DNA from: Lunularia cruciata | Lineage: Eukaryota > Streptophyta > Marchantiopsida > Lunulariales > Lunulariaceae | Assembly (NCBI GenBank): GCA_948567375.1 | Contig: OX419756.1 | Span: forward strand, 28,472,333 to 28,536,332 | Direction of reading: 5' to 3' | Length of the DNA: 64,000 nucleotides | Shown here: positions 21,983-50,500 of the stretch, one piece after another | Numbering within the stretch: position 1 is the first letter of the stretch | How the letters are laid out: every line of letters begins with the position of its first letter | Made by a program: the position numbers and the translations under genes | Notes under the pieces: generated by a model | Told to the model about the DNA's origin: nothing | Database searches by the model: none | Seen by the model: the letters and a program-made list of their open reading frames with translations, nothing else

Positions 21983-23853
21983 ATGGAACCGCGGGCTTTT
22001 CTCAAGCTGTCTGTAGGAGGGCTAGGGCTGAGAATTCCAGTGGCCTCGAAAGCGTCTAGAACAGGAGTACATGCTGCTTCCTCTCCATGTTTTTGCGAAA
22101 TAAGTTTGACGAACTTCCCTGTACAAACGGTACCGGTCACTCTTCTGTCTCCTACTACTGTGGATGTGGACACCCATACCCTTGCGGCAAGCTTTTATTT
22201 GGATGAGCCTGCTCTCCAGAAACTCCTGGCTATCTCATGCTGCAATGCTTCACCGTCCTATCTGAAAGTAGTAGTGTTCTCTGGGCGTCAGGGGTCTTGC
22301 TGTGGTGTTCGGACAGGGAAGAAACTTGGCACTTTCAAGATACCTGTAGCATATGAATGGTCGGAGCGTAAGTCGGTTCAACTTCATACTGGTTGGACCA
22401 GCATCGGGAGGAGTAAGGGCGAGGGTAGAAGGCCCGGGGCGGAGTTACATGTGAATGTGAAGGTTGAACCTGATCCCAGATATATCTTTGAGTTCGATGG
22501 TGAGCCTGCGTTGAGTCCTCAGATTGTACAAGTACAGGGCAACATGCGGCAACCCATTTTCAGTTGCAAGTTTAGTCGCGACAGAAGTTCACGTTCACGG
22601 TGAGCATTCCTGTCTCTTCTACTGCTTCACATCCATGTCGCATGCACATATGAGTCTGTCATTTAGGAGTAACATGTTTCTGAAATTTGAACTCCATGTT
22701 GTCATTGGGTTGCCTGTTCTTTCTGTATTCCTCGACTGAGCCCTCAAGTCATTTATGTCGTTACTCGTTTTGCCACTACAGTAGCATGGGTTAAGGCCTT
22801 CTCTCTTTCATACAGGGAGTCCTTGGATAATTGCTTTAGAAGTTATGGCGCTAATTATAAGTTGCATTTATCGTTGATTCTTTTACTTTCTGGGCACTAT
22901 ATTGTTTTTTGTTTCCCCTTTGAAGCCAGCATTTTTCCAACAACCCCCCGGATTTTGCACTTTCGGATGGGCGGTATCGTCTTTTCGTGTAGGGAGATGT
23001 GTGACCTCGATGGCCTAGTGAAAGTTCAGTCATCTTCACAACTTCTAAACGATTAACCCCTCTAGCGGGTCATGCGAATCCTCGCCGTTCCTCAGTGAAA
23101 TGGGAGGGACTCTAACGCCATTTATTCCGTATTATCAGGTTGGGCTCAGTTGATGTATCAGCCGGGAACGGGTGGTCGGGCTCTGGCAACGGAGACGGCA
23201 ACAAGGAGAGGAAGGAGCGAAAAGGATGGCTGGTGATGATTCATGACTTGTCAGGTTCACCCGTGGCTGCAGCGTCAATGATCACACCATTTGTACCGTC
23301 GGCAGGTTCCGATCTTGTCAGTCGGTCGAACCCTGGAGTGTGGTTGATATTGAGACCGGAGCCTTCTGGTGTCGATAGCTGGAGACCGTGGGGGAGGCTG
23401 GAGGCATGGAGAGAGCGTGGCCGAGGTTCTATAGGTTGTAAATTTACTTTGAATCAGGAGGGTGGTGGAGTGGCGGGTGTCAGCTCGGGGGTACTGATAG
23501 CGGAAGCAAATTTGAGTGTTCAAAACGGTGGAGAGTTTATGATCGATACAGGGAGACTAAGACCGGAAGGATCATCTCCCAATTCACCAATCCAGAGCCC
23601 GAAGAGCAGTGGAGAATTTTCTTTCACTCATGTGCTTCCGTCAGTTGGAGGCTTCGTCATGAAATGCAACGTCAAAGGTGAAAAGGGTGGCATCAAGCCG
23701 GTGATCCAACTTGCAATGCGACATGTAAGTTGTGTGGAAGACGCAGCTGTTTTTATGGCCCTTGCTGCTGCTGTAAATCTAAGTGTGGATGCTTGCCAGC
23801 CTTTCTCGAGAAAGCTAAGAACCGAACTCTCTCATCCGTCAGTACCGTCATAG
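21983..23853 (+). CDS. DUF1005 family protein
   Basis: There are two exons, 21983-22599 and 23139-23853 (stop TAG). The intron is GT-AG and the join is in phase (CG|G), giving 443 residues. The start fits the family: MEPRAFLKLSVGGLGLRIP resembles the usual MDPQ-F-RL-VGSL-L. The second exon has the most conserved block, KGWLVMIHDLSGSPVAAAS then TPFVPS-GSD-VSRSNPG-WLILRP and WGRLEAWRERG, and near the end HVSCVEDAAVFMALAAAVNL. DUF1005 proteins are plant-specific. One Arabidopsis member is known as a stress-induced gene (ASG1), but the biochemical function is unknown to me. No signal peptide or membrane span is evident. Length agrees with full-length family members, so the gene looks intact. Confidence 0.92.
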
Positions 23854-27432: not shown

Positions 27433-30352
27433 TTTTGACAGTCTGAAAAATCTGTTTCAGATGAACCAGCAAGTATATGGAAAAGTTAAACATTAGAAAA
27501 AAACAAAAAAAGAAAACTCAAAATATTTTAGATTGAGAATAAGGAAGAATAAAAAATCATTATAAAATTGCTAGCAAGAAGAGCTGTTATAACAAATAGA
27601 AAATTGAAACTTATGTAGCACATGATATTTCATAATTACAATCAATTGAAAGAAACTAAGGAAAAACGCAGAGTAATAAAATAGAAGCCAAGATAATCAA
27701 GGGCTGATTTCATAATGATAGGTTTGTGACTTAAAATTAACCTATTCACAACTTAATTTATTAGATTTGAAACTATGGCAACTAGATTTAGACCATTAAG
27801 TTGGAGAAGGTTGAAGTCCAAACTTTTGTAATCAAACATGTAAGATGTACAAAATATATTTAAAACCATTATAGTCAAAATTTCAAAATTTATAATATGA
27901 TTTAATTTTGGAGTTTTATTATGGTATTTCTAAGCTCTTCAAATTTGACTTCCTATACGTTTAGCAAGAAAAAAAATTAGAGTTAAGATATGAAAGTTAT
28001 AGGGAAAAGGAAAATTTTGATTCTTTTAATATTGCTACTCTCAAACTTAAGAATGCTAAATGTAGAATGAAATTTTCTTGTAAAGTAGTTGTGTGCTAAA
28101 GGGTTGATTTACTTTTATGTTGATTTAATAGGCTCTCTAAAAGAAATTTCTAAGAAGAAATTGAAAATTGAAAATAATAATAAATAAAAAAAATAAAATC
28201 TATAAGTAGATTAAGAAAGTTAATTTTAGGATAAATTGGTGCAAGAATATATAGATACTAGACAACTTTGTAAAAATTGCCAAAGGTTGATTACAAATTT
28301 CAAAGACAATAATCCAATAACAACAAATAAACAAAGTGCAAAGGTGGAATAAAACAAAGACAAACATAAGCAGATTGTTCATATTTTGCTCAACATATTT
28401 TGTTCTAAAATTTTACATCCCATCCTTTGTTCAAGAGAAGCTATGTTTCATCAAAAAGTACTTGTTGAGAAACACCCCCAAATTAATGTGTGTTAGTGCA
28501 AATAATACCAATAAGAATCTAAGAGTGCTTATACTATATATACCTTGCTTGGAAAGCTTTTTATTTTTTTAAAGTTTAGTTTAGAAGGCTCTTATAAAAA
28601 ATTAATGCAACCAAGAAAAAAAAGGGATAGTTATCCAAGTAATCTCCTAGTAGGACTAGATAACTTTATAGATAGAATTCAAAGATAGGTAGACTTAATG
28701 TTAGAGTAGAATGGTACAGGAACCAATTCAGAATATAAATATAATTATAAACTAAAAATTATGCAAGCAAATAATCCTATGGCAATACTTCTAAAAAGCA
28801 TGAGTTATTATTGCATGGGGTATGGCTGCCTAAGACTAAGCACAACTTCAGCAATACAAAAATATTGTTAAACTTCAGCAATACAAAAATATTGTTAAAG
28901 AATTGAACATTGGCATGAAAATTGTAACAATGCTTAAATGTTACTATTTACAAATGATCATTTTCAAAAGCCAAACAAAGCATGAAGTGGAAATAATACT
29001 ATCATCATATCAAGAGAAATAATTGATAATTCAAATTATATTTTGAAATATAACTTGAGATTGTTATCTCATTCAAAAGGATTAATGTTCCATTATAAAG
29101 AAGTCTTATAAAAACATCCAACTAACATAAGTTTTCCCCAAGCTACTTGTTGTAATCCATTCAAACTATGTTTGTTTGAGATACAATTTCCAAAGACCAA
29201 AGAGTGAAGGTTTTAAGAATAGTTATATAATAGTTATATTTCTTAGAAAGGTGCTCATTGAGACCTTTCAAACTAAGCTAAGTTTGGCCTAAGGTACTTA
29301 CTAATCCTTTCAAACTAAATTTGTTTGAAATATAAAAATAAAATGATGGAGGATTTCTAAAAATAGAAAGCTACATCTAAAGGAGATAGCAACTCAAGTG
29401 ACTTTTGGATATGAGCATAACCTAAGTAACTTTTGAGAGTTAATTAACAAAGCGTGAGTTGGAGATTAATGGAAATATTGAATGGTTAGCTATGGACATA
29501 ACTATAAGTTGGACACATATGAAGTTAAATCATGGACCTAAATCTTTTGCTAAAATTATGTAGTACTATGAGATGCAATTGAGGTCCTCAATTGACTCTT
29601 TTGATAGTTAGGCCATTAGGTGAGAGGTTTCTCAGTGAAGATCATAAACTATTAAGTGAATCCATCCCAAGTCATAATAAGCTTTCTCATATAATCTATT
29701 TTTCTCTTGGGTTTATAGCTAAAGAAAATTTTCCAAAATAAAATAAAATGAAAAATAAACTATGAAATCCTTAGATTATCCAGTAGTATGTGAAAATCTT
29801 AAAACTTATGATGATCTTTACTTTTAATTTACAACTTCAGTTTTTTTTGTTTATATATATATGACCCTAACATACAATAATACTATATGGATAAAAAGTC
29901 ATTACATTAAGAATTTTTCATCCATACACCATGACCATTAATAATATATAATTACAATTCATATGATCAGGTGGAAGAGAACAAAAGATAAGGGATTTCA
30001 TTATTTAAGACTAATTATAAGAATGGATTGTTAATATGGAAAATTGTAATTTTGAAGAGAACCAAGGTTTAAAAAATTAAAATTTTGATAAATAATCTTG
30101 AAGTAACAAGATATGTACATATATGATTACATGAAAAATATATTATACAAGAAATCTAGATTTATTTCTTTATCTAAACTTGATTACATGATTAAGCTAT
30201 TTTTTGGTTGAATATGAAGAAGAGAAGCACAAAGCAATTCAATTTGGTATGTAAAAAAAAGGCGAGATAAGAAGAATAAAATTCATCACTTTTGCAAGAA
30301 TAAAATTAATGATACAAACCTTAAACTCTCCATCAAAATCTTTCAGACAAGG
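26900..30352. other. AT-rich gene-free stretch left of the gypsy element
   Basis: The sequence is strongly AT-rich with only short open frames. It includes the (AT)40 fold-back at 27314-27470 and a small 27-bp tandem duplication (about 28844-28897). It probably consists of old, unrecognisable repeats and served as the insertion site of the LTR element. Confidence 0.55.
27314..27470. repeat. Fold-back: inverted repeat around (AT)40
   Basis: An 80-bp AT run (27347-27426) is bracketed by inverted arms: AACAGATTTTTCAGACTGTC on the left and its exact complement on the right. With a small indel the pairing extends to GCTGGT/ACCAGC at the outer ends. The whole can fold into one long hairpin. It is either a MITE-like fold-back or a snap-back duplication followed by AT expansion. 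Confidence 0.85.
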
Positions 30353-30804
30353 TGTCACGCCATTTGTAGTTCCGCATCTAGTTGCTCGGACACGGGAGTT
30401 CCAGTGATAGTACTTAGAGTTATTCTAGTAGTTTCTCAGGGACTACTTTTCGACAGTCTGATTTGGTGTTTGGGGTACTGACTTCACGGTGGGGCCCACC
30501 GTCACTTTGCACCGTTCGCACCGTCAAGTGTGCCATCAGCGGGACCGTTAGGGTTCCAGTGCTAGCTCGAGTCCAGGGAGGTATAGTTTCGAAGTGAGCT
30601 CCAGAGAGCTCACTTCTATGATGTTGAGCCTTCGAGTTCCTGGCTATGGTAGACAGAGGCCGGCTAGCGTCACCTGGATTCTCTATGCTTGAGTGGGTGT
30701 GGCTTGACTGTAATCAGTGCCTAGTTGTTGGCAGTTTATAGAGTGACAGATCAAGTATTGATCTGAGTTGAGTTGAGTTGAAAGTGTTAAGTAATCTGAT
30801 TACA
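30353..30804 (+). repeat. Left LTR copy of the gypsy element
   Basis: It begins TGTCACGCCATTTGTAG and ends around GATTACA. It aligns along its full length with 39625-40074. It lacks the ~107-bp block that precedes and follows the right copy. Confidence 0.85.
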
Positions 30805-31440
30805 TTAGAGAAGTGAAGTCAGGGGAAATCGGGTGCAGGAACGTTGAGTGTTGGTGGTATCTCCAAGCTCGGTGGATCGTGGTAGCTCGATTCAAGTTCT
30901 GTGTTTCCCTAGTGTGAAGAAGCTCGTTCAAGTGATTCAAATTTGGCAGTTAGGCAGACGGTGTGAGGAAGCGCTGGCCAAATTTCGAGCAAAGAAGGAG
31001 CAATTTTTGAGCAGTGTTGTGATTTTGAGCTCAGGAGGTGAAGGCATGACCAATTTGCTGTGAGTTGGGCTCAGAAAGTGAAATTGAAGGTGGAGTTGGG
31101 AAGCTCTTCTCATGAAATTGTAATTTGGAAAAACCCATTTTTTCAATTTGGCACGAGTGGAAAGTTAGCGGGGGATTTGGCGGACAGCCATCTTTAGGGT
31201 TTACATCAGATTTGGAGGAGTTTTTGCTGTTTGGCCAGATTTGGAGGAGTTTTGCTAGTTTGGAGGACTTTCACAGATTTGGAGAAGTAGAGGCTTCGAG
31301 GCATAGGGCTGTGGGCTATGAGAGGCTACGAAGGCCTCAAAAGGCCAGAAAAGCCAGATTGTTGGCGTGAGGCTAGCTAGTTTAGAGTAGATCTTGGTCA
31401 TTGGTTGGCAAAATCTGCCTTTCTTGCTAGATTGTGCGCA

Positions 31441-31510
31441 ACAGGGTTTGACCCCTAGATCTCTTGTTCCTAGACTGGTGCCCTAGCCAACAGGTCCACC
31501 CTCACTTGTT
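31441..31510 (-). repeat. tRNA-like or SINE-like segment in gypsy leader
   Basis: On the minus strand this reads GTTGGCTAGGGCACCAGTC, then ~20 nt, then GGGGTCAAACCC, which recalls the spaced internal promoter boxes of tRNA-derived repeats. The B-box-like part lacks one base of the consensus and no complete cloverleaf can be drawn. It is weakly supported. Confidence 0.3.
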
Positions 31511-32239
31511 GTCCTAGTGACTGCACCACTATTATCTATACACATGTAACTTTGGCTAGGAGAGGCAGTTTGATCCCATTCTTGGTGATCCTGGTAGTTT
31601 AGGACTTAGATACGAACTGCTCTTATGTCAAATGCCAAATGGTGGCAGAGTCAGTCCCGTGTTGTGTTATTAGATGGAGGGTTTTCGTTTAGATTTCTTG
31701 TGATTGGATCCCCTCCATTCTCTGCTTCCTATTTGTGCACCATGTTTGTGTGAGGTGCCTTGACTTTTGAGCGTTGGTGCTCTGGTGTGCTCTCGGTGGT
31801 GAGGCTGGAGTGATGACCAGTCAGACTACTTGTGTTTCTCTCCGGTGAGGCAGGAAGTGATGACCTGCAGACCGTGAGAGTACTTGTTATGATGGCAGGT
31901 TACAGGTTGCCCTTTCCCCTAGTGTAGTTATCTCGGTTAGAGTTACATTAGTGGGTGGTGTTTAGTTGGTGTTGGCACTTGGTGGGGTACTTGCGGTTGC
32001 GACTTGCGGTTGCAGTTGGTGGTTCGGGTTTGTTGGTGTGGTTACTTTGTCACGACGGAGTTCTTTGGAGATTCCAGAGGAGTTAGCCCTGCAGTACGCA
32101 GTGGGTTTACTCGGAGTGGTGCTCGGTATCAACCTGTATCTCAGGTCCCAGTGAAGGAGGAGATTGACTCTGAGTTGGAGTTTGACATATGAGCTGATTC
32201 AGTTGAGAGTGCACTTGGTGTGTCCGCACCGTTGTTGTG

Positions 32240-33330
32240 GGACATGGACGAGATTTATGGGGCCTCCAAAGGCCCTAGGCGTTACTCTGGTACAGTGGGT
32301 ACCATTGAGTTGGATGACTTCATCCAAGAGTTCGATAGTTGGTGTGATCTGCAGCAGATGTGGAACCCGACTTTGTTCACACCCTTCATGGCATGGAAGG
32401 GGTTGTTTCAGCATCTGGAGGGTCCGCCGATGGATGATTACCATGAGTTTAGGAGAGCTCATTTGGAGGAGATTGAGTTATGGAGACAGTATTGGTCTCC
32501 ACACTATGTCTCCATCACTTCAGGCTCGGTGGCCAGGAGTAGATCGGCTGTACCCACAAGTTCTAGCTCGAGTAGTGTTGGTGGAGCTAGTGGAGGTGCA
32601 CTAGCTGGAGATAGTGCTACTACGCGTGGAGGTACCACTGCAGGAGGTGGTGTGGTACAGGGGTTTAACCCCATGGTTGAGTTCTTCCTATGTTTGAGGC
32701 AAAACTACCAGGGAGTGCGGACTGACAAGCTGAGGAGCTTGCAAGAGTTCCAGCGGAAGGCTGGAGAGAGCCTACGCGAGGCATACACTTGCATGAGGCA
32801 GCTGATCAGTTTCACTCAGAGAGTTACTGAGGCCCAAGCAGTCCAGTTTTGGTATGGGATACTGGACAGGGAGTTGCGACGTAGAGTTCGTGATGCTACG
32901 TTGTTGCAGGCTACTTTGCCCAGTTTGGCAGTAGTCTTTGGTTTGGCTGAGCGTATTGAGCTCAACATGGTGGAGGAGAGAGTGGTGACAGCTAGATTTG
33001 GTAGAGAGACCTCATCCACGGGTGTGACTTCTTCTAGAGTGCAGTAGAGTGCACCACGCCCAGTTGGTTTTTGAGGACAGGGTGGACAGCCCAGATCCTA
33101 TGGAGCGAGTGGAGGGCCTAGTGGAGTTAGACCCTTACCCTCATTTTTGGGTCAGCAGCAGCCAGTGAGTGGTGGTGTTGCTTGTTGGACTTGTGGTGGA
33201 CCTCACCATAGGAGAGAGTGTACTTAGGGCAGCGGACTTGATAGCTCTGGTGCATCACAGCCAGCACAGAGGCAGTGTGAGCACTGCCATAGATTTGGTC
33301 ACACTAGTGACCGGTGTTTTGACCTACACC
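32240..33330 (+). mobile_element. gag region of the gypsy fossil
   Basis: It contains a retrotransposon gag-type helical segment (LRSLQEFQRKAGESLREAY and WYGILDRELRRRV) followed by two CCHC-type zinc knuckles (CWTCGGPHHRREC, and CEHCHRFGHTSDRC with the canonical CX2CX4HX4C spacing). Part of the fossil; broken. Confidence 0.8.
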
Positions 33331-34209
33331 CGGAGTTACGGAGTGGTAGGGCTGCTATGGCAGGTAGTAGAGGAGCTCCAATTCATGGAGGACGAGGTGG
33401 TAGAGGTGGTGGTAGAGGATCTACACCTAGTAGGGGTGCAGTACATGCCCTTACTTCTGACATAGCTATGGCTACTCGGATTGAGCAGTTGGAGCAGAGA
33501 TTGGCTAGTATGGCTATTGCTCAGAGGAGATCAGATTCGGGTGCTGAGGCTTCCACCTCATATGCTGGTGATAGAGATGCTTTGGACTTCATGTGCGGAG
33601 CAACACAGGTGGATGCATCTGCAGCAGTGACTAGGAGTGCAGTACGTGCTCCAGAGCCTAGAGGAGCATCAGTGGAGTTGGACCCATAGAGAGGAGAGGT
33701 TGGGAGACAGGTCAGACTTCCCTAGTCTTTCACGCTATCTGAGGCATTGCAGACGACATCCATGGTTCCTAGACGTCCTAGTGTAGGTGTGGTAGGTGGT
33801 GATGGAGTACATGATGGACTACCTGCTAGTCAGCCACTTGCTACTACAAAGACTGAGTCTAGCATGATGTTGGGGGCGGCTTAGCTGATTATGCGGCATC
33901 CTTTATTTTCAGCCAGTGACATGTTTACATTGGAAGTTGACCCAGCCCCAGTGTTCCGGTTGGCTGCCACCTTGTGTGAAAGTAGGGATGGTGCAGTTCC
34001 TACTACTAGAGCAGAGGTGGTTGGTAGTGGAGCTGACTTGGTTGAGGAGCATGGGATCCATTCAGCGACCAGTGGTTTATGGCAGGCAGCAGCGGCTACA
34101 CTGGAGGAGTTGCCAGCTAGACCGGCCTTTGAGAGAGCACGGTTTACACCTGATGTTGTCCTATTGGATAACTAGAGGGGGATCTTTCATTTGGTGGGAC
34201 CTTCAAGGA

Positions 34210-34550
34210 AGGTCTATACACCACAGAGAGTCTTGTTAGACTCTGGTGCGCAACCTCTTATGTTGGGGAAGGCTGCAATTGTCGGTCTAGAGTTATGGAA
34301 GACCAATGTGGAGAGGTGTCCATTTCAGATCCAGACATCTCTTGGTGGTGGTTCGACACAGTACATCACACATGGAGAGCTTGTTGTCCAGGTTCAGCCT
34401 GGTCATCCGACTGATAGCTCAATGGTGAGAGCTCAAGCTATTGCGACGATAGCTGAGTCATATGATGTGCTAGTTGGGGGAGCAGTGTTATACCCTATGG
34501 GTTTCAGCATTGACTATTGGGAGGAGACAACCTCTTATAGACCTGGTTGG
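34210..34550 (+). mobile_element. Aspartic protease region of the gypsy fossil
   Basis: The motif LLDSGAQPLMLG fits the D-S/T-G-A active-site loop of retropepsins. It lies between gag and the methyltransferase segment. Confidence 0.75.
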
Positions 34551-34929
34551 CAGTTTGGTGAGGGACAGGTATGTCGCCTACCAGTACGCTTCAGTAGTGG
34601 CAGTCTTGGCTCACTACAGTCCGGGACCATGGCAGCATCAGTTTTGGCTTTCAGCGGTGCAGTTACTTGGCCTGGTGACTTGTTGGAGGGGAACGCCCAT
34701 GCAGAGGATACTCCAGTACCAGAGGAGATCACTCGGCTTTGGAGTACGAGTGGGATTGTTCCATCCACCTTGGATGTTCCATTGTGGAGTTTAGAGGAGG
34801 CATTGCAGCAACATGCAGATCAGTTGGTGCAGTAGGCTTGGAGTGGAGCCTTCGTACCATCAGGGGATGAGTGTGAGGATGAGCCTCCAGAGGCGATTGC
34901 TTTGACACCTCTGGATACCACACTCATTG

Positions 34930-35910
34930 CTTGGCAGTATCCAGTAGAGGGGATATGTCTATTGGAGTTGTTTGGTGGGATCAACACCGGACTAGCTGCG
35001 GTGTTACAAGCGGGTATACGAGTACAGAGGTACTTGTATGTAGAGAGAGATGAGACTGCTAGGCGAGTCTCTCTACATCATGTGGCACACTTGGCTTATT
35101 GGTATCCGGAGTTATTACCAATGTCAACAGTCAGAGGTTACCAGAAGGCCTTACCAGGAGACATTTCCTTACTGGGGGCGCATGACCTAGAGAGACATGG
35201 GCCTATTCACTTGGTGATTTCTAGATGGCCATGTCAGGGACATACACGTGCGGGCCGCGGTTTGGGTCTTCAGGATCCTCGTTCTGGTGTGTTTTGGGAG
35301 ATGTTATGGATACTACGACATCTCCAGGTTCATCAGTCAGTTTCTCCAGCTTACCTTTTGGAGAACGTTCCTTTGATGGGTGATTCTCGCACTAGAGTGG
35401 TGGCAAGTACACATTAGGTCCATTCTTGGATGGGACCTAATGTATTGTTAGATGCAGCCAGAGTGGGATCACGGGCTCATCGTCTTCATCTTTGGTGGAC
35501 GAACCTCTTACCCAAAGAGGTTCTACAGCATAGTTATGATGGGATTCAGCGACTAGACCACATTCTTGTTGATGATATCTTGGATGCTGGACGTCAGTCT
35601 CAGATAGTGGTAGTGGCTGATAGGTCACCTATGGCAGTGGTGAACCTAGTTGGATAGCCTAGAGCTGCATTTCCCACACTCATGAGTTTCCTAGGCTCTC
35701 ATGCTTTTTGAGAGGGAGGACCTGGACTTGTTTGGGACTCACAGTTACAACAGTTGGTGGAGCCCAATGCTGATGAGAGAGAGCGGGCAATGGGTTTTCG
35801 CACCGGTATTACCGCTGTTCCAGTAGTGTCAGAGGCATCCAGGCATCAGGTGTTAGGTCAGGCTATGGACCTGAACTGTTTGACCTAGATTGTGAGCCTT
35901 GGCTTGGCAG
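34930..35910 (+). mobile_element. Cytosine-5 DNA methyltransferase domain inside the gypsy fossil
   Basis: The segment shows the ordered C5-methyltransferase motifs: LLELFGGINTGLAAVLQAGI (motif I, SAM binding), WPCQGHTRAGRGLGLQDPRS (motif IV with the catalytic PCQ), LLENVP (motif VI, ENV), an R-rich segment near SRAHRLHLWWTN (like motif VIII), and a terminal GQAMDLN block (like motifs IX-X). The D-x-R-S after the PCQG helix recalls DNMT3-type or retrotransposon-borne enzymes rather than MET1 or CMT. It sits between protease and reverse transcriptase, in the same orientation. It is part of the fossil and broken. That it belonged to the element rather than being a chance insertion is inferred from strand, position and coding flow. 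Confidence 0.85.
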
Positions 35911-36349
35911 AGCAGTGTAGGATGCGCTTGATAGGCATCACCACTCGGACACTTGTGAGCCCTGTGCCTATCGAGACAATTCAGGCACATGCTGGGGGCG
36001 ATGGACCGAGTGGACATGGTATTCTTGGGACACATCCAGTAGCTACTAGGGAGAGTGGTCTAGTTGGAGTCCATCCAGGTGAGCGTGGGCTACTTGGATT
36101 ACACCCTTGGTCCACATGGGATGCAGCTAGAGGATGTGTGGAGCTTGCAGCCAGAGTGGAGGGATTTTTCGCATAGAGGTTGGGACCTCTAGTGGTCGGG
36201 AGCATGACACTATTGCTCCCAAGGGCCCAGTGTAGCAGCCAGTCAGTACGTCTTCCACTCCTACTACAGTTACAGAGGATACTTGGGAGCCAGATCTTGG
36301 ACCCAAGCTTACTAGAAAGGAAAAATAGAGGGTTTGGAGGTTCTTGAGG

Positions 36350-37260
36350 AGTCACACGAGTTGTTTTGCCTTCAGTATGAAGGATTTGGGTGCTCTGAAG
36401 GGACATGGTATACGGATTGAGCTGACTAGCGACACACCAATTTTCCGACGTCCTTATCAATATAGTGATATGGAGAGGACATTGATTCAGAGCCGGAGTA
36501 GTGACCTTTTGAGGCTGGTTTGGTGGAGATTTCACATGGAGAGTATGCATCAGCGACAGTGATGCCAGCCAAGAAGGATATGCATGGCAACTATACAGAT
36601 AGGCGGATGTGTGGAGATTACCGTCCTATCAACCGACAGACCAGGGCTGATCGGTATGCCATGCCTACACCGGAGGAGATTTTTGATGCGATTGGGCATG
36701 CAAAGGTCTTCAGTACTTTGGATCTTCGAGTGGGATATCATCAGTTGCCAATCAAGGAGGAGGATAAGTCCAAGACAACATTTTGGGCTATTGATCCTCA
36801 TGGCAAGGATGTGTTATATCAGTGGAGGTTCTTACCATTTGGGTTGAAGAACGCTCCTGGTGAGTTCCAGAGGGTCATGGATAGGATCCTAGCTGGATTG
36901 GATTTTTCTTGGTGTTATATTGATGACATTTTGGTCTATAGCACTACTGTGGAGGAGCATGAGAGACAGTTGTTGGAGGTGTTTGAGAGGTTGAGATCTC
37001 ATGGACTCAAACTACATCCTGGGAAGTGTAGGTTCTTCCACGAGCAGGTTGAGTATTTGGGTCACACTATCTACCCCGGAGGACTTGGTGTTCAGTAGAC
37101 CAAGGTGGAGGCTATTGCACGTATTCCTCGGCCTATGGATGTGAGCAGAGTGCAAGCATTCCTTGGGTTGGCAAACTTCTATCGCCGCTATGTTAGAGGA
37201 TTTAGTGCCATTGCCAAGGCCTTGACAAAGCTGACCAAGCTTACATAGGAGTGGTGTTGG
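36350..37260 (+). mobile_element. Reverse transcriptase region of the gypsy fossil
   Basis: It shows RMCGDYRPINRQT, FSTLDLRVGYHQ, WRFLPFGLKNAPGEFQRVM and the catalytic CYIDDILVYS, then the thumb (YLGHTI and later FLGLANFYRRYV). These are typical Ty3/gypsy RT blocks. Confidence 0.92.
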
Positions 37261-37289
37261 GGAGATGAGCAGGAGAGAGCTTTTGTAGA

Positions 37290-37720
37290 GCTCAAGGAGA
37301 GGTTGACATCAGCTCCTATTTTGAGGAGACCGATCAAGGGACGACCATTTCAGGTTCATACTGATTGGAGTATGTTGGGGCTTGGAGCAATGCTCACCCA
37401 ACATGATGATGAGGAGAAGGAGTTTGTGGTGGCCTATGCTAGTCGCTCCAACAATTCAGCGGAGGCAAAGTATAGTTCATATAAGGGAGAGTGCTTGGCA
37501 GCAGTTTGGGCAGTAGCACATTTCCAATGTTACCTATTTGGTAACCCCTTCACTCTCATCACTGATCATCAGCCATTGAAGTGGTTGATGGAGTCCGACA
37601 AGCTTCAGGGAAGCTTGCACGATGGGCTCTGATTTTACAGGAGTATGATTTCACGGTTGTTCACGGACCTGGAGTGGTGAACCGTGATGCAGATGGGTTG
37701 AGTAGAAACCCATGTCCCAG
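37290..37720 (+). mobile_element. RNase H region of the gypsy fossil
   Basis: Blocks HTDWSMLGLGAMLTQ, AEAKYSSYKGECLAAVWA, and FTLITDHQPLKWLM are typical of the RNase H of Ty3/gypsy elements, directly after the RT. Confidence 0.85.
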
Positions 37721-38089
37721 CCAGAAGGATCAGACCGGAGCACGTTGGCATGGTGAAACAGATGAGGAGATGGTGCCAGGTTGGCATGCATCGGCCTTTC
37801 TGTGTATATTTGCAGAGACTTTGGTGGTATCTCTCTCAGCGCATACAGGAGGAGTTATTGAGGTCACAAATCCAGAGAGTGAAGATATTGGTACAGTTCA
37901 GCGAGACATTCATGATGATGTCTTAGTGATGGACTATCTTCACACTGGTGTTGTGGGTGGCATAGTTGGGGCCAAGGAGAGAGAACGTGTTCTTCAGCAA
38001 GCCAGACGGTTCAAATTGGAGGGTAGACACCTTTTGCGTGTATGGGAGGATGGTAGAGTGCGAGTAGTACCACTTCCATCATAGAGACC

Positions 38090-39180
38090 ATAGTTGGTCC
38101 GTCATGCTCATGAGGAGCTAAGACATTTTGGAGTAAAGCATACATATAGCTTACTTTAGAGTCATTATTGGTGGCGCGGTATGCAGACCGAGGTGCAGCA
38201 ATTTGTTGCCAGATGTGTGGTTTGTGACCGAGTTAGAGCATCATTCAATGTTCCTACGCCACAGTTACACCCATTACCTATCATGGGATTGGGTTACCGT
38301 TGGAGTTTGGACTTTGCCGGACCTTTACCGCTGATTGTGAGACATCATCGGTATGTTTTGGTGATGGTGGAGCACTTCTCCAAGTGGATTGAGTTGGTGG
38401 CACTTCCTGACAAGTCTAGTGAAGGGACAGCTTACTCGTCCCTAGATCGAGTTCTTAGTCATTTTGGTGCACCAGCTGAGGTTTTGACTGATCAAGGTAC
38501 AGAGTTCTTGGGAGAGTTTCAGGTCTTGTGTGACAAGGCTTTGATTGATCATCGTACTACATCCCGAGATCACCCTGAGGCAAATGGCTTAGCAGAGAGA
38601 GTGGTTCAGACGGTGAAGAGAGGATTGCAAAAGTATGGTTTGCAGAGAAGCCACTTGGGAGATTGGGATCTCCAGTTACCTTGGTTGGCCATGGGCTATC
38701 AGTTCAGCCGGCAAGCCTCCTTAGCATCCTTCTCTCCATACTTTCTACTCTATGGACGAGATCCAGATTTACCTGCAGCCATTCGTCAAGATGCTATTGT
38801 AGTTTTGGACTTGGATGACCTCAATGTATGGATGAGCGCATGTTCTCAGTGGGCAGAGATCTTTCAGAGAGTGATGCCGATGGCCTTTGAGAACTTGGCG
38901 ATTGCTCAGCATAGAGATACTTTACGCTATGCTACCATTCGAGGAGGAGGTTATAGACCCCTCGATCCGTCGATTTCATCTAGGTGACTATGTATATCTA
39001 CAACAGACAGCACCGACGACACTTGATGTTTCTTCAGGCCGCACTATCTTGAGAGTGCACGAGGTTTTGCCATCTAGAGTCCTTGTGTTAGAAGGACGTG
39101 ATGGTGTTGTTTGGAAGGATCATGTGCGCAATTGTGCGCCATGCCACCTTCCAAACATTGATGGTACTATGGACCCAAGC
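38090..39180 (+). mobile_element. Integrase region of the gypsy fossil
   Basis: It contains an HHCC-type zinc segment (ending CVVCDRVRA), the catalytic core (WSLDFAGPLPL, VLTDQGTEFLGEF, DHPEANGLAERVVQ) with the D,D,E triad, and a C-terminal part ending in a small beta-rich domain (VHEVLPSRVLVLEGRDG). Confidence 0.88.
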
Positions 39181-39199
39181 TTGGCACTTGTACGTGCAG

Positions 39200-39350
39200 G
39201 CTTGAGGTGTATGTTTTGTGGCTCTTCTGGTGGAGCTGCCACTATGTTAGTGTGTGATAGCTGTTCGAGAGGATGGCATATGGCATGTATGACTCCTCCC
39301 CTCACGGTGGTTCCTCAAGGACAATGGTTATGTCCTAGATGTACTTGACC
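39200..39350 (+). mobile_element. PHD finger at the end of the gypsy pol
   Basis: The last ~50 residues contain a C4HC3 zinc finger: CMFCG, then VCDSC, GWHMAC and WLCPRC, followed at once by a stop. The W two residues before the last cysteine pair is typical of PHD fingers. It stands where many plant gypsy elements have a chromodomain, so a chromatin-targeting role is a reasonable inference. Confidence 0.85.
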
Positions 39351-39503
39351 TGTAGCTAGTTCATTCTTTATATGGTATAGATTGCAGACAAGCGACTAAC
39401 GATGGGGCTCCATAGCACCCGGCCTCCTGATCTTTGCCCATTAGAGGGTATACCATATACTTAGAGTAGATGGCTATCTGGAGTTAGAGGGACCTAACCG
39501 CCA

Positions 39504-39517
39504 GCTAGGGGGGCGAT
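39504..39517 (+). other. Polypurine tract of the gypsy fossil
   Basis: CTAGGGGGGCGA directly precedes TTGTGGCACTTTAG, the expected place for a plus-strand primer and the start of the 3' LTR. Confidence 0.65.
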
Positions 39518-40180
39518 TGTGGCACTTTAGAGTCTATGTATGACTTATGTGTGAGTTGTGCTTCTATAGTGTATGATGTTGACAGCAATGTATGTTGTGT
39601 AGCGATGTATATACGCACGATAGTTGTCACGCCATTTGTAGTTCTGCATCTAGTTGCTCGGACACTAGAGTTCCAATGATAGTAGTTAGAGTTATTCTAG
39701 TAGTTTCTTAGGGACTACTTTCCGACAGTCTGATTTGGTGTTTGGGGTACTGACTTCACGGTGGGGCCCACCGTCACTTTGCACCGTTTGCACCGTCGAG
39801 TGTGCCATCAGCAGGACCGTTAGGGTTCCAGTGCTAGCTCGAGTCCAAGGGGGTATAGTTTTGAAGTGAGCTCCAGAGAGCTCACTTCTCTGATGTTGAG
39901 CCTTCGAGTTCCTGGCTATGGTGGACAGAGGCCGGCGAGTGTCACCTGGATTCTCTATGCTTGAGTGGGTGTGGCTTGACTGTAATCAATGCCTAGTTGT
40001 TGGCAGTTTATAGAGTGACAGATCAAGTACTGATCTGAGTTGAGTTGAGTTGAAAGTGTTAAGCAATCTGATTATTGTGGCACTTTAGAGTCTATGTATG
40101 ACTTATGTGTGAGTTGTGCTTCTATAGTGTATGATGTTGACAGCGATGTATGTTGTGTAGCGATGTATATACGCACGACA
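39518..40180 (+). repeat. Right LTR region of the gypsy fossil, with a duplicated ~107-bp block
   Basis: A ~107-bp block (TGTGGCACTTTAGAGTC to ACGCACGA) at 39518-39624 is followed by the main LTR copy (39625-40074, starting TGTCACGCC) and then a second copy of the same block (40076-40180). The two blocks are almost identical. The left end of the element has no such block. Confidence 0.85.
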
Positions 40181-40184
40181 AAGG

Positions 40185-40588: not shown

Positions 40589-40838
40589 TGTCGAGAATCA
40601 AAGGAGAGTCAGAGCAACCTTCACACACCCAGCATATTGATAGGAATTATAAATCATACCAAAGGTACGTGGTTCACCTCCACAAGAAAGCATCAGAGTC
40701 CCCGCTTTACTCACTCAAGCTCCTATCCATATGCCAGTCCAGTACTCCGACAGTCTCACAGTCCATCCTTACTCTTCACCTGTGAGTCAGCTATCTCAAA
40801 TCCAGCATAACCTTGAGGCCTAAGAGAAAACCCTAACA
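40589..40838 (-). repeat. 3' LTR of the copia fossil
   Basis: About 250 bp, reading TGTTAGGG to TCGACA on the minus strand. It aligns to 47315-47580 apart from a short deletion. A purine-rich tract (AAGGGGAAG on the minus strand) lies just inside it. Confidence 0.85.
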
Positions 40839-41049
40839 AACTTCCCCTTGACTCTTGTCTTGGAGCTAGTAACCTTGCAACAATTTATCACTCAGCGGGA
40901 GGTTCTAGACAAGCAGCCAATCATTGGACCCCTCCTTTAAACTAGGACAAACTAGAACTTATAACCGTAGCCCATACAGGGATAGAGTAACAAAAACAGC
41001 CAAGGTTACCTCCAATGCTAGGTCATCCTACTCATGCTCCACTTGCACA

Positions 41050-42960
41050 ACCTACAGGCTAGCATGATGCCTAGAGAAACTTTCTAAAGGTATGACTTTG
41101 GTAAAGGCATAAGCCGGGTTGAGCTTACCATCAATCTTGACTAGATCAAACATTTTCTCACACACAACTTGCCTAAGAAAGTGATATCTGATGTCTATAT
41201 GCTTAACCCTACTATCCATCACCTGATTTTTAGCTAAGTGTAAAGCACTTTGACTGTCACAGTGAAGCATTACATTACCATGCATTAGCCCATTGCCATG
41301 CATTAGCCCATCTCAGCAATACATTACCATGCATTAGCCCATCTCAGCAACAAGTCTATCCAATCAAATTGCCTCCTTTGCTACCACATACTCAGCTTTT
41401 ATAGTAGACTGTGCAATGCACTTTTGCAAGGTAGATCTCCAACTAATGCACCCACCACCAACTGTGAATACATACCCCATTTTTGACCTCTGCTTGTCCA
41501 AATCTTGTCCATAATCAGCATCTACATAGCCATCTAGTGATGCGGCATTAATTGATCTTCTATCAAATAAGAGCCCATAGTCTAGTGTACCTCACAAATA
41601 CCTAAGAATCCACTTAACTGCTTCCCAATGTGTCCTTCTTGGATTTGGCATATACCTGCACACCTTACCCATTGCTATGGCAAGATAAGGTCTAGTGCAA
41701 GTCATGAAGTACACAAGACTCCCAACAGCCTTCTCATAAGGAATATTAGACATCATATCCTTCTCCATGGCATCTATAGGACAACATGCCATTGAAATCT
41801 TGAAATGAGAAGCTAGAGGAGTACTTATTGGTTTACAATTCTCCATGTTGAACCTAGTAAATGCCTTCCTATTATACTTACCCTGTGTCAACCACAACTG
41901 ACCAATGCCCAAGTTCTTCTTGATCTCCATGCCTAATATCCTTGTGGCCAACCCTAGATTCTTCATCCTGAACTCCAAACTCAAGAGCGCCTTGATCTTG
42001 TTCACTTCAGATCTATCCTTGGCAGCTATCAACATATCATCCTCATACAACACAAGAATTATGAAACCAAAGGTCTTATTACTCACTGGTTTCATGTATA
42101 CACAAGGATAAACAAATTCCTATTGAAACCTTGAGTGTGCATAAACACATCAAACCTCTTGTTCCATTGGCGAGGTGCTTGTTTCAATCCATACAAGGAC
42201 TTCAACAATTTGAATACCTTGTCCTCCTGGCCTTTCTTCACAAACCCCACAGGTTGTCTCATGAGGATCCTCTCATCCAAGGTGCTATAGAGAAATGCTA
42301 TAACAATATCCATTTGATCTAAAGTAAGACCAAACAATGCAACAAGCATACATAATAGACATATTGCCGAAGACTTTGCAACAAGAGAAAGGACCTCATT
42401 ATAGTCCACCCCCTTCTCTTGAGTGAACCCCTTTGCTACCAACCTAGCCTTGTAGACCTTTGATCCCTCCTTAGGACCCTCCTTCAACTTGTAGATCCAC
42501 TTGCAATCTATCTCTTGTTGATCCTTAGGTAACCTAACTAGCTCCCAAGTCTTGTTATCTCTCAAGGATTCTATCTCCCTTTCCATAGAACCAAACCACT
42601 CATCCTTTTCACTAGAAAAACATGCTTCCCTGTAGGATGAGTTTTTACCTTCTTCCAAGACCAAAGCATGAGCATCATCCTCATAAGTCAAGTCATCATC
42701 CAACAACTTTGTTGAATCAATCCACGTACCATATCTATTTGGAGCTCGACTAGCACGCCTTGTTGACCTCATGGATGAACTCTTTGCTTGATCTCCATGT
42801 GTAGGTCCAATGTAAGACTGACCTAGCATATTTTGTTGCTCACCAGCAACTACTTGTTCCACTTGTTCTTGCTCCTCAAGAACTTGCTCTACTATAGGAG
42901 CACCTCCTTCCTCCTCATCACTTAAGTGATCAATCTCCCCCTCAACTAGATCCAAGGTGG
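41050..42960 (-). mobile_element. Reverse transcriptase and RNase H region of the copia fossil
   Basis: Minus-strand blocks include WIYKLKEGPKEG, ARLVAKGFTQEKGVDYNE, LYGLKQAPRQWNKRFD, ILVLYEDDMLIAA (the copia-type Y-x-DD site) and the RNase H end HGNVMLHCDSQSALHLAKN...VKHIDIRYHFLR. These are typical of plant copia pol. Confidence 0.9.
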
Positions 42961-43870
42961 GATACTACTTGCCTTTGTTAGTATAGGGAGCCTGAGCATT
43001 CTCCCTCCTCCTTGAATGATCTGGATTCATTAAAGAAACATCCCTACTAACCACAACCTTACACGCTATTGAATCCCATAACCTATAAGCTTTCACTCCA
43101 CTTGCATAGCCAAGAAAAACATATTTCTTTGACTTAGCATCCAACTTGGACCTATTCTCCTTAGGTGTGAGTGAACATGCATCACAACCAAATATCTGCA
43201 ATCTACCATAATCAGCTGGTCGCTTGTGCCTCAACTCATATGGCATCTTGAAGTTTATTGCGATGGAGAAATATTTACCACATATGTTGCTGTGTTGAAA
43301 AATCTGCCCAAAACTTATGTGGCAACTTTTTTTTGCTCAATATATCCGTGCATGTTCCAACAATGTCTAGTTGAGCCGCTCAACAACACCGTTCTATTGC
43401 GGAGTGTAAATTGTGGTAAGGTGGCAAGTTATTTCCTATTCTGTGCAGTACGCCTAAAACTCTCCAGAGAAATACTCCCTTCCACTTTCTGATCTCAGAC
43501 ACCTCACCTTCTTCCCAATCTGAGTCTCCACTTGGGTATTCCACTTCTTGAAATTGGCAAAGACTTTAGACTTGTGGTGCATGAAATAAGTACACAAAAA
43601 CCTTGAGTAATCATCAATAAATGTTACATAGTAAATTTTTCCAGAGCATGAGGGTGTAGGATATGGTCCCCACACATCACTATGTACATACTTGAGTAGA
43701 CTCTTGGAACTATGGGTCTCCACTCCAAAAACAGATCTGTTTTGTTTTCCAAAGATACAATGCTCACAAAAATCCAACTTCATAGTCTTCAAGCCATATA
43801 GCAAGCCATTTCTTTTCAAGACAGCCAAACCTTCTCACTCAAATGACCTAGCCGTGAATGCCATACAATT
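42960..43870 (-). mobile_element. Integrase region of the copia fossil
   Basis: It shows the GAG-pre-integrase zinc end (CEHCIFGKQNR), HSDVWGP, YYVTFIDDYSRF, and LRSESGREYFSGEF, followed by the DAKSKKYVFLGYASGVKAYRLWD block. These are hallmarks of copia integrase. Confidence 0.88.
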
Positions 43871-47314: not shown

Positions 47315-47580
47315 TGTCAAGAATTAGAGGAGAGTCAGAGCATCTTCACACACCAAGCATAGTGATAGGAATTCATACATCATACTGAAGATGCGTGGTT
47401 CACCTCTACGTGAGGCTACCTCCATGAGAAAGCATCAGAGTCCATGCTTTACTCACTCAAGCTCCTATCCATATGCCAATCCAGTCATTTGACAGTCTCA
47501 CAGTCCATCCTTACTCTTCACCTACAAATCAACTATCCCAAATCCAACATAACCGTGGGGCCTAAGATTAAACCCTAACA
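47315..47580 (-). repeat. 5' LTR of the copia fossil
   Basis: About 266 bp, minus-strand ends TGTTAGGG and TTGACA. It matches 40589-40838 with roughly 10 percent difference and one extra short stretch. Confidence 0.85.
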
Positions 47581-50500
47581 AAAATGTGAAAGAAATGGTT
47601 TGCAAGCAAATTCTCAGCAAAGGAATAAAAAAAAGAAGGAAGAATTTTTTTTAGGAATTAGATTATCTACTGTATTTATGCCTTAAAAATATTTATGCCT
47701 TTAAAGAAGCACCATATCAGCCTAAGAAGAGTTTTATGAAAAGGAAGAAATTAGGTAGGTGAAATCTTTATCTTTTGATAAAAGAGAAGATAAATTTTAA
47801 ATATTAAATAATCATTGATTGATAGGTGATAAAAGCTGTTCCCACCTTCATAACTCAAATAGTGAATACAAATTATTTGTTAAATATATATATATTTATA
47901 AAGAAGTATTGTCTATATTTCTAACTATCAAGCAATGGAAGTTAGAAATAAAATAAGTAAATACACGGATATTAATTATTAATGACTTTGTAAAGACTTG
48001 CATGAAATGTCCGCAAAAGGTATGTACTACATATCTTATCTTTGTAAGGCATTTATGACAAGTGTTTGAATATAATTGTAATCTCCTCAAGAGTAAATTA
48101 TAAGATGTGAGATGTTTAATTTGAGATAAAATTTAATAAAAATAAGGTACTTATAATTTATTGATGAATTTTTGAATATAAAGAGACTAGATTTAGTACA
48201 AAAGATGACAAATGTATCTTCTAGACTTAAGGAAAAGATAAATACATCTACAAGCAACATACTACTAATAAATATCACTACAAGCCCTATAGAGTAATCA
48301 CTTATAACTACTAATTGGAGTAGAGTTACATCTCAAAAAAGGCCAACTAGCAATAAAACTTATTTTCTATATTAGCTAAAAAAGAATAAAACAAGAGGAT
48401 ATTGATATGAAAGATTAGTTATTCTCTTTGTCAATTCTATTGAGAGAAGTGATAGACAAGAGGAGAGAATTTTGAAAGACTAATATTACACTTAACTAGA
48501 AGCTAAAAATATGAAGGCATTCAAAACACTCATCAATGAAGATCTAGTTTTGTTTCTCTTGATAGAGGAATAAGTGAAGTATAGATTATTGAGGATGATA
48601 AAAATGAGTGAAAAGTCATATAGTAATATAAGTAATTTTATGCATGACCTTTTATGTGGTTTTAATATCTAAGGATATATTCAACAATAAATAATTTGAT
48701 TTTGAAGGCTAGTTTTTTCTCCTACTAAGTGCAAAGAAGGGAAGACTGTCCATTAGTGTAATGGATATTAGGAGCTTCTTCCATTTCTTTTATAAGAGCA
48801 AAAAAGATGTAATGCAATGACAGATTGAGATAAATGATATGCTTTGTTTTTATTATGCTATTTTTCAGTTTATGCTTATTTTTTCCTTTACATGGATTCT
48901 GAATAATCATGCTATTACAAAGTACAAGATTATGCAATAACATAGGATTTATTCATATCAAGGAACCAAATGTCAATAAAAATCTTTTAAAAGAAAAAAA
49001 ATATAACATCATGTATTCTTCCTCATCCTTTTTCATATTCTCAAAATATTAATCAAGAGAATTATGCAATACATTTCATCATTAAAGACCATGTATATAG
49101 CTGAAATTATTAAATTTATATTACATAAAAATATATAGAAAAGGTACATTTGTATTCCTTTATCTATGTAATACACTAGTATCACATCCATAAATTTATT
49201 TCAAAATTCTGATTTTATTTTCCTCCAGTCATGTTTTGGTTAAATGCTTTTTCATCATAAACACAAACATAAGTTCCCACGGTCTTTGACAAGATCTGAT
49301 TGTTGTATTTTGGATGGAATAATCTTACATTCACAATTGATATCTTTCAAGAGTAAAATAACCTTTCCAAAGAGTCGAATTACCTCCAAAATGATAACAG
49401 TTAGTAAACACTATATTCCTCATATATTTCTGACTTTAAAGTTCTTTATCATAGTGAAATCAATTGTCGGCATGATCGATAACTTGATCATGCTGGCTAT
49501 TGATTCACTATGATAAAAGAACTTTAAACTATCGATCAAGTTATCAATCATGCTGGCAATTGATAACCTGCGTACCTTGTAATTTCAAAAGCATATGGAC
49601 AATATTATATCAATTAAGAGTAGTAACCTACAAACTCAAATTTTCTATAACAAGTAGTTACTTTCTGGGTTCGAAAGCTAGTGCAATCTGCTTTATCACT
49701 CGACAAATTGAAAGGACTAAATGCACACTTATCTGTTGTAAACAGCAACGACTTGATTGATATTTATTCCTTCGGGCATAAGATCTTCAGATAATTTGTG
49801 CAGAAGCTTCGTGGACAGAAGATATTCTTCACAGGAAAAGCTTCCTAAACCCCTACATAAGTTGTAAATTAGTTTCATGCACAAATGATGGTGAACGTAC
49901 AAGCAATTCAAGTCTCGGAGGAGTCAGTCAAATGCAAAGATGTACCCACCACTTGGGTCTCGCTCGATGGACTCTTCAGATATGGTGAAAACCCAGTTTT
50001 ACATATAGGGGTGGAAGCTCAGTCTGACAGATAGGGATGGACGCATCGTGCTCCAATTAGTGCGCAAATTACTCGGATCTTGTACAACGTGACTTTTCGT
50101 ACTTGGCCCTTCCTGGCCCAAACCTTTTGACACATTCAAGACTTCAATGCAGAAAGATTGGATTGTCTTCTCTTAGCCTTGAGCATTCTTCAAGAACCAT
50201 TCTCAGCTGCTCAAACCCATAATACATCACACCTCCCTCGCCTGCACAACCGAGCAATTTCACCCACGAATGTCTGGTCCGCCTTCTCTGCAATGGATCT
50301 CCTTTTCAAGTATTTTATGCCAGAGTCGGTTAGAGTTGGACCTTTAACGTCGTTTTTCATAATCATTGTGAGAGTAAAGACCCACAAGCATATTATGCAT
50401 GTCCCGTAACACACAAGATTACTTTTAGAAACCGCATTGAACCATTTTAGCCGTTTAACGGAAGTTAATTACTAATGGTTATCATCTCCGCCTCTTCAAG

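Follow-up and report, generated by a model that had tools for sequence, protein, structure and literature searches.

A DNMT3-type methyltransferase in a gypsy retrotransposon family of Lunularia cruciata with split repeats and 4-bp target duplications

Introduction

A 64-kb stretch of a 566-Mb Lunularia cruciata assembly (contig positions 28472333-28536332), hereafter called the window, received an initial annotation in which a DNA cytosine methyltransferase lies between the protease and the reverse transcriptase of a Ty3/gypsy fossil. Such a placement raises the question of whether the enzyme belongs to the element, which methyltransferase it derives from, and how an element built in this way would replicate. 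The precedents named at that stage, in charophyte algae and dinoflagellates, are real (de Mendoza et al. 2018, PMC5890265; statements from this paper refer to the available part of its text). Retrotransposon-embedded DNMT3 in streptophytes is also mentioned in the available part of a 2025 paper that cites the 2018 work (PMC12344493). No land-plant gypsy element with a methyltransferase was found in the available parts of the open-licence literature, including PMC6453930, PMC12344493, PMC9516144, PMC8566409, PMC6317226, PMC2774666 and PMC5890265.

Results

Structure of the element

Window positions 30353-40180 (+) form a single 9,828-bp retrotransposon with Ty3/gypsy domains and the bases AAGG on either side. 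Along the + strand the order is A1, primer site, leader, Gag, protease (PR), methyltransferase, UAG, reverse transcriptase (RT), RNase H (RH), integrase (IN), PHD finger, polypurine tract (PPT) and B1-A2-B2, where A and B denote two repeat units. The coordinates are presented in Table 1.

Table 1. Coordinates of the element's features within the window.
Feature	Position	Strand	Remarks
Target site duplication AAGG, left	30349..30352	.	Equal to 40181-40184
Repeat A1	30353..30801	+	449 bp; abuts host DNA at left, no B ahead
TATA-like box (TATAG) and putative transcript start/self-primer 28 nt on	30582..30624	+	1 substitution in window copy
Putative primer-binding site	30802..30816	+	Directly 3' of A1; 1 substitution in window copy
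Untranslated leader	Between primer site and Gag	+	
Gag region	32244..33700	+	Start codon inferred; stop-broken
CCHC knuckle CEHCHRFGHTSDRC in Gag	About 33276-33317	+	
Aspartic protease region	34095..34829	+	DSGA motif about 34239; motif and homologous block in relatives
DNMT3-type C5-methyltransferase	About 34947..35909	+	Ordinary motif order; 4 in-frame stops
UAG CAG CCA stop	36233..36241	+	In-frame stop that separates ORF1 (Gag-PR-DNMT) from ORF2; consistent with UAG-CAR-YYA
Reverse transcriptase	36416..37224	+	RVT_1
RNase H	37258..37658	+	RT_RNaseH
Integrase	38039..39106	+	H2C2 zinc finger and rve core; Pfam
PHD finger	39208..39343	+	C-terminus of integrase frame; PF00628 1e-11
Polypurine tract AGGGGGGCG	39507..39515	+	
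Repeat B1	39516..39622	+	
Internal B1/A2 junction	39619..39628	.	GATAGTTGTC in window copy
Repeat A2	39625..40073	+	95.5% identical to A1
Repeat B2	40074..40180	+	Right element end (GACA)
Target site duplication AAGG, right	40181..40184	.	

The PR-RT-RH-IN order with an rve integrase is that of Ty3/gypsy elements (Metaviridae), the protease being assigned by motif and homology only, with no Pfam match in its region. The Retrotrans_gag match in an open copy is weak (E 0.07, below the Pfam cut-off), and the solved fingers nearest to the PHD finger include CHD4, KMT2D, KDM5B, PHF21A, DPF3 and ATXR5. The initial annotation located the methyltransferase correctly: it lies inside the gypsy-type element between protease and RT, on the same strand as the RVT_1, RNase H and rve domains downstream, and its motifs stand where they had been placed (LFGG about 34968, PCQG 35229, ENV 35361 and GQAMDLN 35856). 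Compared with the open frames of other copies, ORF1 of the window copy is interrupted by 13 in-frame stops, including four within the methyltransferase, and ORF2 by 6, and four one-base gaps are also present, so the copy is dead. The description of the locus as a fossil therefore holds for this copy but not for its family, which has open frames elsewhere. The PHD finger, the split repeats, the in-frame UAG at 36233 and the putative self-priming signal are additions to the initial annotation.

Several other features occur in the window. A Ty1/copia reverse transcriptase fossil (41592-42964, -; RVT_2, E 1.5e-42) lies near the right end of the element, between the two copies of a 165-nt direct repeat that are 88% identical and 6.7 kb apart (40676-40840 and 47418-47582); given the fossil between them, these copies are perhaps the ends of another LTR element. 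The + strand also holds a 1,210-aa open frame with no Pfam match at E 0.001 (4113-7745) and two frames jointly covering nearly all of DUF1005 (21947-23853), and the - strand a 1,127-aa frame with DUF2921 lipocalin-like and transmembrane domains (51835-55218).

The methyltransferase domain

The initial annotation had named a search with the Pfam DNA_methylase profile as a check, and the search returned a match, so the claim does not fall for want of a hit. PF00145 matches the broken frame of the window at 34836-35417 with E 5.1e-5 and 23.3 bits, against a cut-off of 22, and the same segment of the open copy L009 with E 1.9e-7. A seven-row profile of the element domain, built from L009 and six relatives, was run against solved structures. 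Its best relatives are DNMT3A, 3B and 3C (DNMT3A 9e-21), followed by DRM2 (6e-13), with HaeIII, HhaI and DNMT2 far behind at 4e-7 to 1e-6 and no DNMT1/CMT entry among the matches. A chance run of methyltransferase motifs, rejected by the PF00145 match, is ruled out by that match together with the profile matches to DNMT3A and DRM2. An origin from DRM, DNMT2 or bacterial enzymes is rejected on the profile ranking, in which DNMT3A comes first. The motif order in L009 is unpermuted, unlike the rearranged order of DRM. By profile ranking and unpermuted motifs, the window methyltransferase is classified as DNMT3-type.

Among 12 selected proteins there is no variation at the catalytic Cys, the Glu-Asn pair or two Arg of motif VIII. 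Outside this selection, P0042 and Klebsormidium P0212 have lost the Asn of ENV, and ECQ replaces PCQ in many relatives. An AlphaFold2 model of the methyltransferase has a mean pLDDT of 81 and a pTM of 0.86.

Family copies, reading frames and selection

The PF00145 search of the genome yielded at least 123 places, a lower bound obtained by scoring the best candidates; the window copy itself falls outside this set. Thirty of these places were inspected, of which 26 belong to the element family and four are native-looking; judged by eye, L001 and L004 are DNMT3-like, L002 is DRM and L003 is CMT/DNMT1-like. The same genome as the element thus holds two native-looking DNMT3-like gene pieces, L001 and L004. 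All 22 copies fetched at length hold the methyltransferase because every one was picked from the PF00145 methyltransferase matches. Two of the copies depart from the common structure: the methyltransferase of L026 is broken up by about 700 bp of foreign sequence (3780-4477, +), and in L022 the element begins mid-Gag, adjoining a 799-aa open stretch without a match to the element.

L009 and L010 have an uninterrupted ORF1 (Gag-PR-DNMT) of 1,428 codons; L013 and L014 have an uninterrupted ORF2 (RT-RH-IN-PHD) of 1,037 codons, which begins directly after the UAG. The two ORFs lie in the same frame and are divided by UAG followed by CAR-YYA, the tobacco-mosaic-type readthrough context, in 23 of 23 copies, including that of the window. 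ORF1 ends 103 aa past the methyltransferase domain; eight predicted Gag-PR-DNMT relatives end 82-127 aa past it, as read at the protein level. Given a split located 3' of the DNMT, the methyltransferase of this clade should be made together with Gag and protease rather than with the scarcer Pol, and a leaky UAG would set its production at the Gag level.

Variants in the 23 copies were divided into those seen once, in exactly two copies, and in three or more, and their N:S counts were compared. Amino-acid changes are relatively fewer among the shared variants: over seven domains pooled, N:S is 470:222 for variants seen once and 75:96 for those in at least three copies (p 7e-9), in a test that leaves out all exactly-two-copy variants and the stretch after the methyltransferase. 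The corresponding values are 58:28 and 10:19 for RT, 133:70 and 11:23 for Gag, and 85:43 and 21:22 for the methyltransferase (p 0.03), whose single-copy variants are close to neutral and whose variants in exactly two copies look neutral as well (28:14). PR (p 0.10), RNase H and PHD present no significant difference between the two classes, and the stretch after the methyltransferase has 34:11 and 5:4. The methyltransferase thus seems to have been retained during replication, with a modest N:S signal of its own.

Repeat organization and target duplications

The order A-internal-B-A-B holds for all 17 two-ended copies, with A1 shortened in L010. None of them has identical LTRs at its two ends, the left end being A and the right end A-B throughout. 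The four bases outside A1 equal the four outside B2 in 16 of the 17, and none match as 5-mers; under equal base use, the chance of 16 of 17 matching 4-mers is 5e-38. The exception, L013, sits inside another copy, has sides that map to different element parts, and looks recombined. Ordinary LTRs are rejected on the repeat order and the 4-bp duplications. Three of 20 examined insertions (L013, L026 and L027) lie inside copies of their own family. A diverged piece of repeat A (77%) stands in reverse orientation 205 bp to the left of copy L015 (L015 1-209, +).

The internal B/A junctions, of which 21 are distinct, all read GACA-NN-TGTC or transitions thereof, with GACAGCTGTC at 13 of them. Their spacer is 2 nt in 21 of 21 cases (GC 14, GT 3, AC 3, AT 1), and these two bases are absent from both outer element ends. 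The A/B junctions are identical in 21 of 21 distinct places, namely 20 right ends and one place at the left of L026.

The A-internal-B-A-B order, the junctions and the duplications are not expected from linear DNA with ordinary LTRs. The observed ends would arise from a circle with two B-A repeats if the integrase cut GACAGCTGTC with a 2-base stagger between the strands, which suggests that a DDE integrase opens a circle at the internal palindrome. Given that a symmetric two-repeat circle has two equivalent junctions, half of the insertions should take the form A-B-A-internal-B, yet this form is seen in none of the 17 two-ended copies. The damaged copies L022 and L026 might be its remnants: the left side of L026 consists of A, part of B, part of A and internal sequence, and the right side of L022 stops after B1.

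Self-priming signal

Directly after A1 stands ACATCAGAGAAGTGA, which is matched in 16 of 18 copies and differs by a single change in each of the remaining two. Repeat A contains the exact complement of this site, TCACTTCTCTGATGT, 28 nt below a TATAG found in most copies. A search for the complement with at most two mismatches returned 67 matches, 54 of them exact, a count that takes in the complementary site itself and overlapping sequence stretches. The window's A2 has 15 matching bases against the common form of the site, compared with a maximum of 11 in 300 block shuffles of A. From these signals we infer Tf1-like self-priming, with a predicted RNA 5' end. Priming by tRNA was rejected on a comparison by eye with the end of the initiator tRNA, which shares only 7 bases; within the window, ARAGORN reports no tRNA. 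Among plant gypsy elements, self-priming is known from the Tcn1 clade, and plant elements have 4- or 5-bp duplications (PMC6317226, in the available part of its text, where the terms "PHD" and "methyltransferase" are absent).

Age and CpG/CHG content

The comparison of A1 with A2 covers 15 pairs, L010, L013, L023, L047 and L048 being omitted as they have no full or trustworthy pair. The difference ranges from 0.7% (L014 and L017) to 10% (L016), with 4.5% in the window copy. Transitions account for 156 of the 175 mismatches, and the changes amount to 56 at 34 CG sites (1.65), 47 at 47 CHG sites (1.0) and 53 at 137 CHH sites (0.39). This excess of transitions at CG and CHG is a mark of host CG/CHG methylation, and such changes are expected from the host whatever the element itself does. 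Eight copies with A1/A2 identity of 97-99% have observed/expected values of 0.43-0.48 for CpG and 1.14-1.18 for CHG; the old copy L016 has 0.33 and 0.88, and the CpG values of the window flanks are 0.73 and 0.26, so one flank is scarcer in CpG than the element copies. The CpG scarcity of young copies, measured in this one family and set against the window flanks, could come from CG methylation of the replicating form.

Relatives and phylogeny

Related methyltransferases occur in Marchantia polymorpha, M. paleacea, Riccia sorocarpa, Calypogeia fissa, three Sphagnum species, Closterium and Klebsormidium nitens. For Riccia, Calypogeia and M. paleacea, met among the best 120 of 158 matches, the evidence concerns the methyltransferase only; gypsy surroundings are present in M. 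polymorpha, S. fallax, Closterium and K. nitens. The M. polymorpha methyltransferase is up to 72% identical to that of the window family. In the M. polymorpha protein P0008 the identity is 69% for the methyltransferase and 70% for RT, and in P0016 it is 64% and 79%. K. nitens P0212 has the order PR-DNMT-RT-RH-IN, with 43% (methyltransferase) and 56% (integrase) identity to the window family, and K. nitens P0205 comprises PR-DNMT. No PHD finger follows IN in Closterium P0171 and P0195, and P0212 stops short of this position. One locus, L049, came from a scan of viral contigs; its best segment has 32% identity.

Maximum-likelihood trees of the methyltransferase and of RT-RH-IN were built for 16 proteins chosen from those at hand. 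The same four clades appear in both, with support of 100/100 for the bryophytes, 100/100 for Closterium, 100/100 for Klebsormidium P0212 and P0207, and 94/100 for a group with the order RT-RH-DNMT-IN; the branching order among them is poorly resolved. Larger trees, of 99 methyltransferases plus two outgroups and of 30 pol sequences, agree on the bryophyte and Closterium groups and place Klebsormidium P0205 apart from P0212. Given that the outgroups are short stretches only (L001, about 107 aa of native DNMT3-like sequence, and the DRM stretch L002), a single clade of element enzymes, distinct from native DNMT3, is a weak claim.

The recovery of the same four clades from methyltransferase and pol favours a single old capture of DNMT3. 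In three of the clades the methyltransferase is placed between PR and RT, but the fourth has it between RNase H and IN; at least one move, of the domain or of its neighbours, must have occurred. The 2018 paper treats the Klebsormidium DNMT3 as an acquisition in that lineage (PMC5890265); the present data fit an older, shared capture, and horizontal transfer between hosts is possible. The window copy is no land-plant oddity: its family forms a branch within a streptophyte lineage to which a Klebsormidium element also belongs.

Comparison with known systems

Split-direct-repeat elements of the DIRS, Ngaro and Kangaroo kinds have the repeat order A-coding-B-A-B, and DIRS/tyrosine-recombinase elements are not known to make target duplications. 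The window family differs from them in its rve integrase and 4-bp duplications, and Pfam finds no tyrosine recombinase in its two open frames. Membership of DIRS is rejected on integrase type and target duplication. Tf1/sushi and Tcn1-clade gypsy elements carry a chromodomain and ordinary LTRs, whereas the window family has split repeats and, with no Pfam chromodomain match in its open frames, a PHD finger at the integrase C-terminus instead. The likeness to these elements lies in the self-priming signature (PMC6317226). The RT-RH-DNMT-IN-PHD relatives (among P0025-P0046) share the methyltransferase group and the PHD finger with the window family, but have a single frame in which the methyltransferase follows RNase H and precedes the integrase.

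The closest published system is KnitGypsy-Dnmt3 of Klebsormidium nitens, to which P0212 and P0205 probably correspond, judging by species and domains. It shares gypsy domains, a DNMT3 within the polyprotein and DIRS-like repeats (PMC5890265, Fig. 4 legend for the repeats) and, taking P0212 as this element, the same gene order and one DNMT3 plus gypsy pol lineage. The window family differs in its stop after the DNMT; it also has a PHD finger, at a position that P0212 does not reach. Target duplications, a palindrome and a self-primer are not met in the available part of the KnitGypsy-Dnmt3 description (PMC5890265). The dinoflagellate SymbioDIRS-Dnmt3 and SymbioLINE-Dnmt also carry a cytosine methyltransferase (DNMT3 in the DIRS case), and SymbioDIRS has the repeat order A-coding-B-A-B; as described, they are set apart by tyrosine recombinase or LINE machinery in place of a DDE integrase (PMC5890265).

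Discussion

Taken as a whole, the locus is best explained as a dead copy of an old streptophyte DNMT3-gypsy family with the life cycle proposed here, an explanation towards which we lean slightly. Transcription would start in repeat A, below the TATA-like box, and the RNA 5' end would fold back onto the site after A1 and prime reverse transcription, as in Tf1. Synthesis would lead to DNA with two B-A repeats and joined ends, the invariant A/B junction representing that join. The integrase would then open the circle at GACA-GC-TGTC with loss of the two spacer bases, and the opened circle would insert with a 4-bp duplication, giving A-internal-B-A-B. Transcription from A, self-priming, joined two-repeat DNA and integrase opening at the palindrome seem, jointly, reasonably probable.

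That the repeat layout is secondary, produced when tandem or nested copies recombined and thereby reshuffled ordinary B-A LTRs, is very improbable. Nested copies do exist and L013 looks recombined, but such rearrangement is at odds with 4-bp duplications exactly outside A1 and B2 in 16 of the 17 two-ended copies, with A/B junctions that are identical throughout, and with the DIRS-like repeats also described for the Klebsormidium elements (PMC5890265). Independent capture of DNMT3 in the Klebsormidium and bryophyte elements, or passage between hosts, is unlikely. The poorly resolved clade order, two Klebsormidium proteins left ungrouped in the larger tree and the published view for the K. nitens lineage (PMC5890265) speak for it; the PR-DNMT-RT-RH-IN order shared by P0212 and the assignment of the methyltransferases to the same four clades as pol speak against it.

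As to the enzyme, its most likely role would be to methylate the element's own DNA in the particle, with PHD guidance to inactive chromatin. A leaky UAG would yield little Pol and much Gag-PR-DNMT, so that the methyltransferase would enter the particle and methylate new element DNA there; the PHD finger of the integrase would steer insertion to chromatin lacking H3K4 methylation, and new copies would thus arrive already quiet and be less harmful. The three insertions within own-family copies would fit such guidance, with a weight that depends on how much of the genome the family occupies. We regard the leaky stop, in-particle methylation and PHD-steered quiet insertion, taken jointly, as tentative and on the doubtful side. 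Self-silencing or heterochromatin upkeep, as initially suggested, would be one of several readings. Somewhat less probable than in-particle methylation with quiet insertion is a protective role, in which the methyltransferase would shield or conceal the cDNA, be it from nucleases of the host or from systems that sense unmethylated foreign DNA, instead of silencing the copy once inserted. The same arguments of location and stoichiometry apply to it, and cDNA protection was offered by de Mendoza et al. for the dinoflagellate elements, with the caveat that retrotransposons without a DNMT also move in these genomes (PMC5890265); nothing in the present data separates shielding from silencing of the inserted copy. 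We consider it quite improbable that RNA is the enzyme's methylation substrate in the particle, or that the enzyme is a structural nucleic-acid-binding domain. It is encoded with Gag, 5' of the UAG, some relatives miss a catalytic-motif letter, and the Klebsormidium domain was without activity in yeast, a result its authors called inconclusive (PMC5890265); however, its nearest solved relatives are DNMT3A/B and not DNMT2, and the 12-protein set is uniform at the catalytic Cys, the Glu-Asn pair and the motif VIII Arg.

The new anatomy consists of A-internal-B-A-B repeats together with exact 4-bp duplications. Whether these copies represent a gypsy lineage with its own cycle (a self-primed circle opened by a DDE integrase at GACAGCTGTC) and with a Gag-level DNMT3 and PHD kit that predates land plants is, in our judgement, evenly balanced. 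If so, there would be a DDE-integrase route from a circle, which has long been held unproductive as an integration route for retroviruses, and one element would carry both a writer of chromatin state (DNMT3) and its presumed reader (PHD). The DNMT3-carrying kind of element, known from one alga and dinoflagellates, looks old and widespread. Retrotransposon-borne DNA methylation would then be an old trait of streptophyte elements, reaching beyond that alga and the dinoflagellates, and would be present in Marchantia polymorpha and Sphagnum, where it is open to genetic testing.
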